Positions 30,625 to 46,939 of a stretch of DNA of 54,842 nucleotides are shown here, in pieces. The DNA is from Candidatus Woesearchaeota archaeon (GTDB lineage Archaea > Nanobdellota > Nanobdellia > Woesearchaeales > GW2011-AR9): NCBI GenBank assembly GCA_018664115.1, contig JABJOX010000055.1, forward strand, positions 1 to 54,842. Reading direction: 5' to 3'. A program made the position numbers and the translations under genes. The notes below the pieces were generated by a model that saw nothing but the letters and a program-made list of their open reading frames with translations, did no database searches and was not told where the DNA came from. Each line of letters opens with the position of its first letter. The stretch's first letter is position 1.

Positions 30625-31920
30625 TTATTCTTCTACAATTATCAACGGACCAGTATATTCTGGAAGAACTATTGGTTCTATTTCTACTGCATTGGGTAAA
30701 TTCATTTTTTTAATATTATAATAAGTGCAAAATCCTGAGGTTTCTAAAGAACTCCCTATTTCAGCATTAAACTTTTCTGCCCCTAGTTTTGTGGTGAAAA
30801 ATTCGCTTTCACTTTGTCCTAAAGCAACAACGTCATGTGGATTATTAATTCCAAATAATTCAGGGCCAGTACAATCATCAGATTCATAATGAATATTTAA
30901 AGTGGACATTCCCGGCCAATCGCCACCAGTTACAACCTTACCATTAAAACGTAAATAATAAACTTTATCAATGTTCACATCATAAATTGTAACATAAGTA
31001 GAGTGACCCAGTCCAGACATTGGTTTCCATCCCAAAACATAACCAACCTCTTTACCTTCAGAATCATAAACTTTTAACGACGGACCAGTTGGTCCCATCT
31101 CGCCAGGAATTCCTTGTTCACCTTGTAAACCAGTATTTCCAGTATCCCCTTTTAGTCCGGCCAATCCAGTTAAACCTTGGATTCCTTGTTCTCCTTTTAG
31201 ACCAGGAAGTCCTTGTAAACCAGTTTCTCCCTGAATACCTTGTGGACCCATAATACCCATTAAACCTTCTAAACCCTGTTCGCCTTTCGGTCCAACTGGA
31301 CCTTGTAATCCGGCATCTCCTTTTGGACCTTGAATTCCCTGATAACCCTGTTCACCTTTCGGACCAGTCTCTCCAGCAATACCTTGAGGACCTACTTCCC
31401 CTTGCAAACCAGTATCACCTTTGTAACCCTGAATACCTTGTTCTCCTTTTTCACCAGGTATTCCTTGAGAACCAACATCACCTTTAAGTCCTTGAATTCC
31501 CTGAAATCCTTGTAATCCTGTATCCCCTTTAATCCCTTGCAAACCCATAAGTCCCATTGGACCTTGCGGACCAGTTAATCCAGTTTCTCCTTGCGAGCCA
31601 GTTTCTCCTTTTTCCCCAGGAACTCCTTGTAAACCAGTATCACCTTTGTATCCCTGAATTCCTTGTTCTCCTTCTGAACCAGGTGTTCCTTGAGGGCCAG
31701 TTTCTCCTTGCAAACCAGTATCTCCTTTAGAACCAGGTATTCCTTGTAAACCAATAGGACCTTGCTCACCAACTAAAGGTGTTTGATTTTCTAAATATTC
31801 AACACGTTGTTCTAACTGAGCAATTTTTTCATTATAATTAGTTGAAGGATTATTATCTAGATCACAAGAAGGTAATGCTGCACAAGCTGCAAATAATAAA
31901 GTAGTAAGTGTTTTTCTCAT
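30625..31920 (-). CDS. Collagen-like (Gly-X-Y) secreted lipoprotein
   Basis: Signal peptide with lipobox-like LPSC, coiled coil [16 protein letters not shown], ~76 GXY triplets, C-terminal globular domain. Confidence 0.85.
31083..31770 (-). repeat. Gly-X-Y encoding repeat tract
   Basis: Tandem 9-nt periodicity (GDTGLQG, GEQGIQG and similar). Confidence 0.85.
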
Positions 31921-33839: not shown

Positions 33840-34112
33840 ATGGAAAACAAAGAATGGTTTGTTTATATCTTAGAATGCCACAACGATTCTCTTTATACAG
33901 GCATCACTAACGATTTAAAGAAACGTATGCTTACACATAAAAGCGGCAAAGGAAGTAAATATGTTCGTGCCAAAGGTTTTAAAAAACTATTACACGCAAT
34001 TTCTACAACAAATAAAAGTGAAGCAGCTAAGATGGAATATCAAATTAAACAATTAGAACGAAACGATAAAATTACTTTCTTTATGAAACATCCAAATCTA
34101 AAACTTCTCTAA
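33840..34112 (+). CDS. GIY-YIG nuclease family protein (UPF0213/YhbQ-like)
   Basis: WFVYILECHNDSLYTGITNDLKKRMLTHKSGKGSKYVRAK. Confidence 0.9.
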   Translation: MENKEWFVYILECHNDSLYTGITNDLKKRMLTHKSGKGSKYVRAKGFKKLLHAISTTNKSEAAKMEYQIKQLERNDKITFFMKHPNLKLL

Positions 34113-35642
34113 ACTCAGCTGTCCTTTACGTGTCCCTTTAGGAATCTCACGAACCTCAAGACCAAGCTGCTTATGAACGTCAACCGCTAATTTCACACCT
34201 AACATTTGTGCTAAAGAAGTTAAATCTGTTTTCTTCACATCACCCAAATCTTTTATCCCATTAATAACCATTTTTCTGGCACGAACACGACCAACACCTT
34301 TCAATTTTAATAAAGGTAACAACTCTTCTTTAACACCATTCTTAACACGAATTCTTAAATTATGAATTTCTTTGGTTAAACCACCAGCCATCATCGAAAC
34401 TCGAGCTAATTCTGAAGAAGCGTACAATAACCAATCAGCAATTTCAATTTTAACACGAATCTCTCCCGGACGAATATCAAAATTCTCTAATAAGAAATCC
34501 TCATTAGTTTCATTGATCCAAGCGTCAAAAAACAAGGAAGTTTTAATGGAATTAATAAATTCGTTATATTCTAAATCAAAAGCAGAAGGTTCTTCTTTCA
34601 ATAGTTTATCATAATTCTTAACCAGTTCTTCTTGAATTTTATCTTGTTCTTTTGCTTTAACTCTCAATAATGGCCGCATTTCTAAAGTATGACAAATCAT
34701 TTGTAAAAGAGAAAAACTATCTTTCTCAGAATTAAATTTTATTAAACAATCTAATAAATGTCTTGCAGTTAACGGATCAAGATACAATTCAGAAACTCTT
34801 TGTCCAAGCAAAGTAGCTTTTAATTTTCTAATTTCTTGATTCTTTTTGTTTAAATCTTTAGCAACAACAAAGTCATCTTGAACTCTATCTGCCCCAGAAA
34901 TTTTTACAAACTCCCATTCTTCTAACAGATTTAACATTTTATCCATAATCATTTCTAATTTAGCAAAATCTCGAAATTGTGAAGCCCAAAAAGTTTTTGA
35001 AAAGAAATCTTTCATATTCTTTTCATCTGTAATTATCCCAGAAGCGATTAAAGAAAGAAGATAAGTTCTTAACACCGGTTCAACAGCAAGTTTAGAATAT
35101 ATTTCTTCTGGTTTTCCTAAAACGTATCTGTCATAAATTTCTTGTTTATCATTTTCATCTTTTGCAACCGTTATCGCTTCTCCTTCTTTTTCAAACTCAG
35201 GCCGGCCAGCTCTGCCCGCCATTTGTAAATATTCTAAGACCGGAATCCAATCCATGCCCCATTTACCTGAAAACCTTTTAAGAGATTTGATAATCACACG
35301 ATAAGCAGGAAGTGACATCCCTGCTGCTAAGGTGGGAGTGCAACAAATTACTTTGATTTTCCCACTTCTAAACTCATCTTCAATCAAATCTTTTTGTTTC
35401 TGTACTAAACCAGCGTGATGAAAAGCAATTCCTTTCCTAACACAACGTGATAATCTCCGACACTGTTTTGTTGATGAAGAAGCAGCTTTAAGAACTTCTT
35501 CTTCCATTTCAGGATGTTGAAAATTAGTTAATTTAGAAATCTCTTCAGCAGATTTTTCTGCAGAAGCACGAGATGGTGCAAAAACTATTGCCTGCTTCTT
35601 CATCTTAATAGTTTCTACTGCTAATCGCTGAATATCATCCAT
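34098..35642 (-). CDS. Hel308/Ski2-like helicase lacking the N-terminal RecA1 domain
   Basis: QAIVFAPSRASAEKSAEEIS; GIAFHHAGL; GRAGRPEFEKEGEAI; C-terminal GVGRVRARKM HhH; no Walker A or DEAH box. Confidence 0.8.
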   Translation of the reverse strand: MDDIQRLAVETIKMKKQAIVFAPSRASAEKSAEEISKLTNFQHPEMEEEVLKAASSSTKQCRRLSRCVRKGIAFHHAGLVQKQKDLIEDEFRSGKIKVICCTPTLAAGMSLPAYRVIIKSLKRFSGKWGMDWIPVLEYLQMAGRAGRPEFEKEGEAITVAKDENDKQEIYDRYVLGKPEEIYSKLAVEPVLRTYLLSLIASGIITDEKNMKDFFSKTFWASQFRDFAKLEMIMDKMLNLLEEWEFVKISGADRVQDDFVVAKDLNKKNQEIRKLKATLLGQRVSELYLDPLTARHLLDCLIKFNSEKDSFSLLQMICHTLEMRPLLRVKAKEQDKIQEELVKNYDKLLKEEPSAFDLEYNEFINSIKTSLFFDAWINETNEDFLLENFDIRPGEIRVKIEIADWLLYASSELARVSMMAGGLTKEIHNLRIRVKNGVKEELLPLLKLKGVGRVRARKMVINGIKDLGDVKKTDLTSLAQMLGVKLAVDVHKQLGLEVREIPKGTRKGQLSLEKF

Positions 35643-42416: not shown

Positions 42417-43766
42417 CTATACCAATTCTTTCTTCAACCAATCTTTTCTCCAGTAGAAATAATATGCAATTCCTGCAGAGATCACATTAGAAATCGGATA
42501 AGCAACCCAAATCCCTAATTGTTGCATCCCAACAATTGATGATAAAACATAACTAATCACAAATACCATAATTGTATTAAACAAAGCTAGAAACATTGCA
42601 GTTGTAGTTTTTCCAGCTGCTTTTAATGTTCCAAAGATTACCATTTGCATTCCAATAAAACCAAACGTTAATGCCATTATTCTAATAAAGAAAGCAGCTT
42701 CTAAAACCAATTCAATTTCATTCGGAACAAAGAAAGCCGAAATTGGTTTAGCAAAAATAAATAGTAAAACTCCTAATCCAGTTAAAGTTAAGAAACCAAT
42801 TTTCATTCCCGTTTTAACAATCTTCTCTGCTCGTTCATGCTGTCTTGCACCTAAATTATTACCAACAATTACTGAAGTAGCAATGGAAAAACCAATTCCA
42901 GGAATAATCACAAACATAAATATTCTCATTCCAATTCCAAAAGAAGCAATGGTTAAAGTTCCAAATAACGAAGCAACAAAAGTCATTAAAATCATTCCAA
43001 AAGAACGAGAACCCATTTCTAAAGATGACGGTAATCCTAATCTAAAAATTTTCTTCACCCAAGAAAACTTCATTTTTAAATCAGACCATCTTAATTTAAT
43101 CCCATAAGTTCCCCTAACCAATAGAATAATTCCAATAATTGCAGATAAGTATTCTGTGATTAATGTTGCAAGTGCAACTCCTGAAACTCCCATAGCGGGA
43201 ATGAATCTCCAACCAAACATTAATACTGGATCTAAAAAGAAATTCAACACAACCGTAATAGAAATAATGATTAACGGCACTTTAACTTCTCCAACCCCCC
43301 GTAATGATGATTGAAATAAAATGTAAACAAACATTGCTGTGATTGCTAAGAACGATATTTGTAGATAAGAAGTAGCTTGTTGTAAAACGGATAAATCTTT
43401 AGTGAGAAACGATAATAAATAATGTGAAGAAAAATATCCAACAACAGAAATAATTACTGCCATAATAGAAACTAAACTTAAACTTTGCCCAACAGTGGAT
43501 GAAACTTTATCAGGTTCACCTTTTCCATTATATTGAGCTACAAGAATAGATGAAGCCATTAATAAACCCATTGCTAAAGACATTAAAAAAAATAATATTG
43601 GAAAACTTAACGATACAGCCGCTACTGCTTCTACTCCTAACCGACCAACCCAGAATGTATCAATTAATTGATAAACTGTTTGCAAAATGTTGGCAAAGAT
43701 TATCGGCACTGCAATTATCAATAACGATTTTGTAATTGAACCGTTAAGTAATTTTTCTCTATTCAT
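42417..43766 (-). CDS. MATE family efflux transporter
   Basis: NILQTVYQLIDTFWVGRLGVEAVAAVSLSFP and MATE topology. Confidence 0.9.
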   Translation of the reverse strand: MNREKLLNGSITKSLLIIAVPIIFANILQTVYQLIDTFWVGRLGVEAVAAVSLSFPILFFLMSLAMGLLMASSILVAQYNGKGEPDKVSSTVGQSLSLVSIMAVIISVVGYFSSHYLLSFLTKDLSVLQQATSYLQISFLAITAMFVYILFQSSLRGVGEVKVPLIIISITVVLNFFLDPVLMFGWRFIPAMGVSGVALATLITEYLSAIIGIILLVRGTYGIKLRWSDLKMKFSWVKKIFRLGLPSSLEMGSRSFGMILMTFVASLFGTLTIASFGIGMRIFMFVIIPGIGFSIATSVIVGNNLGARQHERAEKIVKTGMKIGFLTLTGLGVLLFIFAKPISAFFVPNEIELVLEAAFFIRIMALTFGFIGMQMVIFGTLKAAGKTTTAMFLALFNTIMVFVISYVLSSIVGMQQLGIWVAYPISNVISAGIAYYFYWRKDWLKKELV

Positions 43767-43859
43767 AATTAAGATGGTTTTAGAATTAGTTTATAAAATT
43801 AATTGTTAACTTTTTAATTACCGAAATAAATATAAACCACCCCGAAAAATAATAAAACA

Positions 43860-44126
43860 ATGGAAGCTAGATTAAGAAATGACGCTCATGAACTTATAAA
43901 GAAGAATCTAGATTTAGCAGATATGGTCAGTAAAGTTTATTACAAAAAGTTACCAAATTATATTCCTTTTAGTGATGTAAGAGATGCTGCGTATTTGGGA
44001 TTAGTAGAGGCTGCTAATAAATATAAAAATATTGGGATTGGCTTTGGTGCATTTGCAAGACCAAGAATATTTGGAGCCATTACTGATTATTTAAGAAAAG
44101 AAGATAACCTTTTTAGATCAGCATGA
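43860..44126 (+). CDS. Sigma-70 (FliA-like) region 2 protein
   Basis: IPFSDVRDAAYLGLVEAANKYKNIGIGFGAFARPRIFGAITDYLRKED. Confidence 0.8.
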   Translation: MEARLRNDAHELIKKNLDLADMVSKVYYKKLPNYIPFSDVRDAAYLGLVEAANKYKNIGIGFGAFARPRIFGAITDYLRKEDNLFRSA

Positions 44127-44572
44127 AAAATGAAGTATTTAAAGCTAAAAGAAAATTAGAAAAAGAAAAAAAAGAAGTAAATAAAGAAAATCTTGCCAGA
44201 AAAATGGGTTTATCTTTAGATGAATATCTTGAACTAGAACAAGATTGGTCAATCAGCGTTAAAAATATAAATGAAGCTTTTACTGGTTATGATGGAAGCA
44301 AGACTTTTGCTGAAGTTTATAGTAATCATTCTCCAACTCCTGAAGATGAAACTTTATTAATGGAAGATAAAAGAATTTTATACCAAGCACTAAAAACAAT
44401 AAAAAATGAGAAAAAAAGAAAAGCAGTTGAATTATATTTCTTAGAAGGGGAAAATCAAGAAGTGATTGGAGAAATTTTAGGAGTCACTGCTAGTAGAATT
44501 TGTCAAATCCACACAGAAATATTACCACAATTGAAAGAAACAATTATTGAAATAAGAAGTGAAGGGATATAA
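44123..44572 (+). CDS. Sigma-70 (FliA-like) regions 3-4 protein
   Basis: VNKENLARKMGLSLDEYLEL; ALKTIKNEKKRKAVELYFLEGENQEVIGEILGVTASRICQIHTEILPQLK; ATGA overlap with the region 2 ORF. Confidence 0.8.
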   Translation: MKNEVFKAKRKLEKEKKEVNKENLARKMGLSLDEYLELEQDWSISVKNINEAFTGYDGSKTFAEVYSNHSPTPEDETLLMEDKRILYQALKTIKNEKKRKAVELYFLEGENQEVIGEILGVTASRICQIHTEILPQLKETIIEIRSEGI

Positions 44573-44578
44573 AAAAAC

Positions 44579-46939
44579 CTACCCTTCCACAACCCAAACT
44601 TTAACAGTAAACGGTTGTTCTTCAACTGAATCGTCAACAACAACAGCTTCTTCAACAACTTCTGAATAAACATTCACAACCCATTCTTTGGTTACAGAAT
44701 CTCTACCATCTGAAACAACAACTTTAACTTTCTTCTTTCCAGGTGATGTAAATGTTCTTGTGATTGTATCAGTCCCAATAACTTTTTGCTGTCTTAAACC
44801 AAGATTCCATTCATACGACAATTTATCGTTATCTAAATCTTTAACCGCAACATGGAATACTGTTTTCACTCCAGTCTCAACTGTGATTACTTCTTCAGGT
44901 AAGAAATCTAATACTTCAGGCTTCTGATTAACATTCTTCACAATAACCTCAACAGGATGAACAACTTCTAAAGAACCATCAGAAGCAACAAAACTCAAAA
45001 ATACAGTTTCTTGTTCCTTGTTGAACTTTCTATTCCAAGAAGAATATTTACTAACAAGATTATTCAAAAATCCACCCGTCTTTTCAGCAACAGTACTATG
45101 AGCTGGTGCCCAAGTAAATTGGCCATCATTAAATGATGCGCCGAAAGGAATGTTATCTAACCTAATTTTAAGTTCATCATTGTCAGGATCAGTTGCTGAA
45201 ACCCAGAAACTAAATTCTTCTCCCTCATTAACAATGTGTTTATCTTTTTTGATTTTTAAAGTAGGTTCACGATTATTTTTCTTAACTGTTAAATAAACAG
45301 TTTCAGTATTACTCAATTTACCATCAGTAGCAGTAAGTGTAACCGGATAAATGTCTTGATCATCATAATCAGTACTCCATTTACCTGACCTTTTATTTAA
45401 TGGCCAACCATAATAAATTTTAACTTTATCACCATCAGGATCAACTGCTTCAGCATTAAAATCAACAGAATCTAATTCAGTAATTGTTAAATTTTCAAAA
45501 CTTGTAAATTGTGGCATTCTGTTAACATTGTAAACAATTAATTTAACTTCGTTAGAAGTACATAATTCTTTTCCACAAGCGGTTATTGTAAATGGCACAG
45601 TTTTTTTCTTCAAAAAATAATGTTCTAACTTTAACGAACTAAGTAAATTACTAACAAAATTACCTTTCCTTTTAATGTAATCATAACCTGGTGTCCAAGA
45701 GAAAACATTATCTTTTTGATCAAATTCAAAAACTTCTGGGAAGCCAGCAAAACTAACTTCAACTTTATCATTATCAGGATCAGAAACATCAATTTCCCAT
45801 AATAATTCTTCATTTTCATTAACATAAATTTTTTCAGGAACATTTAATACTGGCGCTAAATCAACATCTAAAACAATTATTTCAACTTCTTTTTCAACAC
45901 TAAATTCACCATCAGAAGCAACTAATTCCAAATTATACTTCCCTGCATCATTAAAATTAGTTTGCCATTCACCTTCCTTATCAAGTGGAGTTTCAAACGA
46001 ATAAGATAACACGTCACCATCTAAATCAACGTCTGGTAAATCTAAATAAACTAATTCGCCTTCTTTAACAGTTACTGATAAAACATCCAAAACCGGTTTT
46101 CTGTTAACATTTTCAATATTAATAGTCCATTCTTTTTCTGAACTTAAAGTGCCATCAGTTACAACTAATTCTAACAAATGTTCACCTGCAGAATTATAAT
46201 CTAGATAATATTCGCCGGAATTTTCTTCTCCAACAATTTCGCCATCAAATTTCCAGACAAAAGATAATTCTTCTTTATCACCATCAACAGCTTCAACATA
46301 AAATTCTAAATCCTCATCTTCTTCAAAATTAACAATTTTACCTTCTGAAAAAGTATTAATTATTTCTGGTGCTTGGTTTGTATTTGATACAGACACATCA
46401 ACTCTAAATTTTTCATTAAACTCACCATCACTTGCTTCAAATACAGTTACAAAGTTTCCTTCATTATCATAATCAGGTGTCCACTTACCATTGTTATCAA
46501 ATGGCGCATTAAAATTAAAACTGATTGGATCATCATCAGGGTCAGTAACAAGTTTCTTTAAATCAATAGTTTGAGTTTCTTTGATAGAAATTTTATTCTC
46601 TGATAAAATAGGAGGTTGATTTTTATTATCTACAATTACTTTAACTTCTTGTTTAACTTGGTTAACACCATCAGAAGCAGTGATCTCTAAATCATGTTCA
46701 CCAGCATCATCATAATCTGTTTGCCATTCACCTTTATCATCTAACGGCGGAGAATAATAATAAACAATCTTATCATTATCTAAATCAGTTGCTTCAGCTT
46801 TAACTTTAACTAAATCAGTTTCTTGAACATGAAAAGTTTTTACAGCTGCAAAAGAAGTATTAACTAACAAAAATAGAGTCATCAGTCCAATCAGAACTAA
46901 AATTGTTTTTTTATTGTTCATTTTATTCCTACCATTCAA
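44579..46939 (-). CDS. Secreted multi-repeat Ig/cadherin-like surface protein
   Basis: Signal peptide; repeats of NxxP..l..i.v.E...v.....D.DgD.v.y.....l...G.W.tdy...G.y.v...asDg. Confidence 0.8.
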   Translation of the reverse strand: MNGRNKMNNKKTILVLIGLMTLFLLVNTSFAAVKTFHVQETDLVKVKAEATDLDNDKIVYYYSPPLDDKGEWQTDYDDAGEHDLEITASDGVNQVKQEVKVIVDNKNQPPILSENKISIKETQTIDLKKLVTDPDDDPISFNFNAPFDNNGKWTPDYDNEGNFVTVFEASDGEFNEKFRVDVSVSNTNQAPEIINTFSEGKIVNFEEDEDLEFYVEAVDGDKEELSFVWKFDGEIVGEENSGEYYLDYNSAGEHLLELVVTDGTLSSEKEWTINIENVNRKPVLDVLSVTVKEGELVYLDLPDVDLDGDVLSYSFETPLDKEGEWQTNFNDAGKYNLELVASDGEFSVEKEVEIIVLDVDLAPVLNVPEKIYVNENEELLWEIDVSDPDNDKVEVSFAGFPEVFEFDQKDNVFSWTPGYDYIKRKGNFVSNLLSSLKLEHYFLKKKTVPFTITACGKELCTSNEVKLIVYNVNRMPQFTSFENLTITELDSVDFNAEAVDPDGDKVKIYYGWPLNKRSGKWSTDYDDQDIYPVTLTATDGKLSNTETVYLTVKKNNREPTLKIKKDKHIVNEGEEFSFWVSATDPDNDELKIRLDNIPFGASFNDGQFTWAPAHSTVAEKTGGFLNNLVSKYSSWNRKFNKEQETVFLSFVASDGSLEVVHPVEVIVKNVNQKPEVLDFLPEEVITVETGVKTVFHVAVKDLDNDKLSYEWNLGLRQQKVIGTDTITRTFTSPGKKKVKVVVSDGRDSVTKEWVVNVYSEVVEEAVVVDDSVEEQPFTVKVWVVEG

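Follow-up and report, generated by a model that had tools for sequence, protein, structure and literature searches.

Sigma-70 proteins are particularly prevalent in Woesearchaeota, for which mis-binning has been ruled out and no anti-sigma factor has been found (Castelle et al. 2021, PMC8204110). These DPANN proteins are bacterial-type sigma factors residing on archaeal contigs beside TFB/TBP. Among sigma-70 factors, the FliA/WhiG (sigma-28) family is typified by a single polypeptide carrying regions 2, 3 and 4 in order. A division of these regions between proteins is described for SigO-RsoA of Bacillus subtilis, a working two-subunit sigma in which RsoA provides region 2 (sigma2) and SigO provides region 4 (sigma4) (PMC10028694, PMC8103513).

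In this study, we examine a sigma-70 locus in a Candidatus Woesearchaeota archaeon, within a window of 54,842 nucleotides (the whole stretch of DNA that was analysed; contig JABJOX010000055.1). Like the published DPANN examples, the gene lies on an archaeal contig in a genome that also encodes TFB, and the presence of sigma-70 in this archaeon is therefore not new, as an earlier note made from the sequence had suspected; the unusual part is the split. Regions 2, 3 and 4 follow in the order of FliA/WhiG factors and the best profile is TIGR02479, but unlike those factors this sigma is spread over two ORFs, with a linker two residues short and a changed core-binding motif. As in SigO-RsoA, sigma2 and sigma4 are found on separate polypeptides from neighbouring ORFs, whereas here sigma3 stays with sigma4 and the ORFs overlap by ATGA. 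Moreover, the function of SigO-RsoA has been demonstrated, while the present pair is a putative one and its split lacks conservation in the relatives searched. We favour, with middling confidence, an accessory FliA/WhiG-type sigma-70 gene whose frame was recently broken by a small linker deletion present in the genome itself; the weights given to this and other readings are judgements rather than a computed posterior. The features of the locus are as follows.

42417..43766, minus strand: MATE-type transporter, a flanking gene, 95% identical in the genus mate G002, where it adjoins a different insert.
43822..43836, plus strand: archaeal promoter, comprising a BRE-like CGAAA (43822-43826) and the TATA box TATAAA (43831-43836), assigned from the sequence and the TATAWA peak of this genome.
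43860..44126, plus strand: ORF1 (88 aa), which encodes region 2 (sigma2) of a FliA/WhiG-like sigma factor and ends in the stop TGA.
44115..44126, plus strand: the sole interval in which one frame shift could join ORF1 and ORF2, set by the stops TAG and TGA; its sequence is AGATCAGCATGA.
44123..44572, plus strand: ORF2 (149 aa), which encodes the remaining regions 3-4 (sigma3-sigma4) of the factor begun by ORF1.
44579..46939, minus strand: Ig-like repeat surface protein, a flanking gene whose counterpart in G002 (789 aa) occupies the corresponding site.

Elsewhere in the window, the minus strand encodes a collagen-like GXX repeat protein (30625-31920) and a Hel308-like helicase ORF (34098-35642) whose N-terminal DEAD half is apparently absent.

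The TATAAA begins 29 nt 5' of the ORF1 ATG. With 246 gene starts considered, the TATAWA motif of this genome shows a peak between -30 and -28 relative to the start codon, with 46 hits against 0-7 at each other position; since TATAAA at -29 falls within this peak, the ORF1 promoter is well supported, and the archaeal-style TATA box described in the earlier note stands. The spacing implies a transcript that is predicted to be leaderless. Bacterial contamination or a chimera was rejected on the basis of archaeal-type genes in the window, the archaeal leaderless promoter and synteny of the neighbours with a genus mate, all of which agree with the initial view of an archaeal genome; other sigma genes residing on contigs with archaeal genes further counter it. 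The genome itself is a 1.1-Mb draft of 68 contigs, 86.6% complete, in which (G000) TFB is present and TBP was not found. TBP occurs in 56 of 60 relatives and in all 40 that are at least 90% complete, so its absence is probably a gap in the draft assembly, and a loss of TBP was rejected as an explanation for sigma use.

Profile searches with the Pfam models place Sigma70_r2 (PF04542) in ORF1 at 31.3 bits (cut-off 24) and Sigma70_r4 (PF04545) in ORF2 at 38.7 bits (cut-off 24.1); region 3 is present in ORF2, its Sigma70_r3 (PF04539) match of 20.2 bits lying below the 25.3 cut-off. The proposed division into region 2 and regions 3-4 is borne out by scores above threshold for regions 2 and 4, the match for region 3 staying under its threshold. 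FliA_WhiG (TIGR02479) is the best-matching family of both halves (44.2 and 63.5 bits), in keeping with the FliA-like character first assigned to the pair. ORF1 covers positions 2-77 and ORF2 positions 84-222 of the 224-position profile, with almost no positions lost between the two matches. The split falls at the inter-domain linker, as had been claimed. Read as a fused protein of 237 aa, the pair scores 118 bits over positions 2-222. The halves and the fused reading all remain below the curated subfamily cut-off of 189.6 bits, and because even the fused score does so, the label 'FliA-like' is used rather than FliA.

Among solved structures, the nearest relatives are those of Pseudomonas FliA (9wsm, 9wsf) and WhiG (6pfj), all of them bacterial. 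The AlphaFold model of ORF1 (mean pLDDT 89) matches sigma2 domains with a TMq of 0.7-0.8, and that of ORF2 (mean pLDDT 74) consists of sigma3-sigma4-like helices whose relative domain placement is poorly defined, its top PDB matches being sigma chains. In region 2.2, the core-binding motif D-L-x-Q-E-G reads DVRDAA in ORF1. Among 41 sigma segments from fetched loci, nearly all of this clade, the two key positions hold Q in 26 and E in 33; in E. coli sigma-70, these positions are established contacts of the beta-prime coiled coil. Judged from these residues, the face of ORF1 that would bind core RNA polymerase is atypical. This bears on the suggestion that the factor is delivered to, or acts on, the RNA polymerase of a bacterial host. 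Such a role would suit a bacterial-type sigma in a DPANN archaeon, and many sigma relatives in the clade retain the canonical core-binding motif; ORF1, however, does not, and the gene stands under its own archaeal promoter, leaving this reading extremely improbable.

At the junction, the two ORFs lie where they were first reported and share the 4 nt ATGA (44123-44126). The frame of ORF1 ends at TGA (44124-44126), and ORF2, in the -1 frame relative to ORF1, is closed on its 5' side by TAG (44114-44116); because these stops close the frames, any single joining shift is confined to the 12 nt of 44115-44126. This interval contains no homopolymer, consistent with the earlier remark that the junction lies outside a long one, and no slippery heptamer; no Shine-Dalgarno core was found 5' of the ORF2 start. 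A programmed -1 frameshift joining both ORFs into one 237-aa sigma factor would agree with the frame of ORF2 and with the near-complete FliA_WhiG match of the fused reading, but there is no slippery site on which it could act, and the T-run just 5' runs straight into TAG in the shifted frame. This candidate was rejected and is, in our estimate, very improbable.

The length of the linker is informative here. When the junction is aligned to intact sigma homologues, of which nine belong to the order and one is bacterial, it is two residues shorter than in all ten, which show zero length variation at this position; compared with them, the net loss is 7 nt, namely 2 aa and 1 nt. An alternative is that the real genome carries one unbroken FliA-like gene, disrupted by an assembly or sequencing error. 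The evidence comes from a single incomplete draft in many contigs and FliA-like homologues are intact, both of which speak for such an error. Against it, a single-base repair is restricted to 12 nt free of homopolymers and would still leave the protein two residues short of the ten homologues; a one-base slip alone is insufficient because the true discrepancy is 7 nt. A one-base assembly error or base-calling slip seems unlikely, and to error in general we assign a small chance.

Sigma70_r2 is found in 41 of 60 relatives. The same genome carries three further, consecutive RpoD-like sigma genes of 475-482 aa (G000:C56, L115 86-4498, minus strand) on a contig with archaeal-type genes, and a comparable row of three occurs on G002 C28, with two sigma genes on G001 C8. 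The same-order sigma-70 genes found here are single ORFs, many of them RpoD-like with N-terminal extensions, whereas the present one is FliA-like and broken. Additionally, one ORF of 1552 aa in another relative (G014:C39, L038) contains three Sigma70_r2 matches, with repeated similar boxes between them, and represents a chained multi-sigma protein. Fused and profile queries were run against 353 genomes of the order and 378 genomes sampled from the class, and every FliA-like match in the family, order and class sample is a single unbroken ORF. No other break between regions 2 and 3 was seen among the approximately 150 sigma matches listed from the 353 genomes, and no homologue with the same split was found in the 378. 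One other lesion occurs among the matches listed: an RpoD-like gene (G250:C24, L117 352-1191, minus strand) is interrupted by an in-frame TGA after region 3 and before region 4, and an ATG a few codons on opens a region-4-like ORF.

The homologues found share at most 33% identity with this sigma. The closest of the FliA-like ones, at that value (G310:C58, L070 1218-5674), shares its contig with the archaeal RNA polymerase genes rpoH and rpoB'', at a distance of about 1.6 kb. Closer homologues were absent from viral_contigs, and the searches of genome_contigs and plasmids returned only a Bacillaceae FliA (28%) and bacterial FliA (23-32%), respectively; nothing in these three sets dates the break. 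At the syntenic site of G002, both flanking genes are kept and the sigma pair is replaced by an unrelated 141-aa ORF, and the locus is therefore accessory.

We return to the broken gene as the preferred reading. Its intact ancestor would have been expressed from a leaderless TBP/TFB promoter as one sigma-like DNA-binding initiation factor, with sigma2 serving the -10 element and core contact, and sigma4 serving the -35 element and the flap. A short deletion in the sigma2-sigma3 linker (net 7 nt) would then have broken the single reading frame, such that at present the only efficient product may be the 88-aa sigma2 piece. The sigma3-sigma4 piece would depend entirely on re-initiation coupled to the ORF1 stop at ATGA, so that this allele is probably inactive or heading for loss. 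The break is probably recent. The shortfall of the linker is as expected if a deletion occurred, and further indications drawn from sequence comparison include the unbroken FliA-like homologues of the order and class, the accessory locus, which lacks sigma in G002, and the DVRDAA motif together with the absence of a Shine-Dalgarno for ORF2 and of a slippery site. A priori, a functional fission is also a much less common event than an accessory gene with a broken frame. The missing Shine-Dalgarno carries limited weight: 4-nt ATGA overlaps commonly join operon genes in this genome (26 were counted over 461 kb), a Shine-Dalgarno core precedes 15 of the 26 (background 12.5%), and a strong inference from its absence was dropped, the other 11 being likewise without one.

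Several observations count against a broken gene. Among random 1- or 7-nt deletions simulated in the window's own genes, a junction this clean, with the ORF1 stop within one codon of the break and the ORF2 ATG in a 4-nt overlap, arose in about 0.9%, or 2.3% with GTG and TTG starts counted. Both halves are otherwise intact and retain a coding-type third-position GC bias, the promoter is intact, the break falls in a domain linker, and ATGA junctions are, as noted, common between genes of this genome. The junction drew notice owing to its neat look, which we weighed against reading much into that neatness.

The same observations can be read in favour of joint action, in which ORF1 (sigma2) and ORF2 (sigma3-sigma4) would work together from one leaderless transcript through translational coupling at ATGA. 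The roughly 1% chance of so clean a junction under random deletion, a cut placed exactly in the linker between halves free of other lesions, the native archaeal promoter, modelled folds kept by each half and the SigO-RsoA precedent (PMC10028694, PMC8103513) all suit this arrangement. However, the split is known from one genome and recurs in no homologue found in the 353 genomes of the order or the 378 of the class sample; in addition, the core-binding motif is atypical and the ORF2 start has no Shine-Dalgarno. We regard such a pair as possible, though doubtful, and the fuller claim of a first archaeal two-subunit sigma, FliA-like, fissioned at the sigma2-sigma3 linker and expressed as coupled cistrons from a TBP/TFB promoter, as a shade more doubtful. 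The three functional roles floated in the earlier note (a two-subunit sigma, a repurposed pair or a factor for a host RNA polymerase) lose ground together, given the unshared split, the absence of the gene from the syntenic site of G002, the lack of a Shine-Dalgarno for ORF2 and the atypical core face of ORF1.

The locus touches on the question of why archaea whose transcription is driven by TBP/TFB have retained sigma factors of bacterial type, and on which RNA polymerase these would act with. A naturally split sigma, if true, would offer separable parts with which to test the binding of sigma2 to an archaeal clamp. Should the frame simply be broken, this sigma gene would be an accessory one, dispensable and gained or lost between members of the genus.
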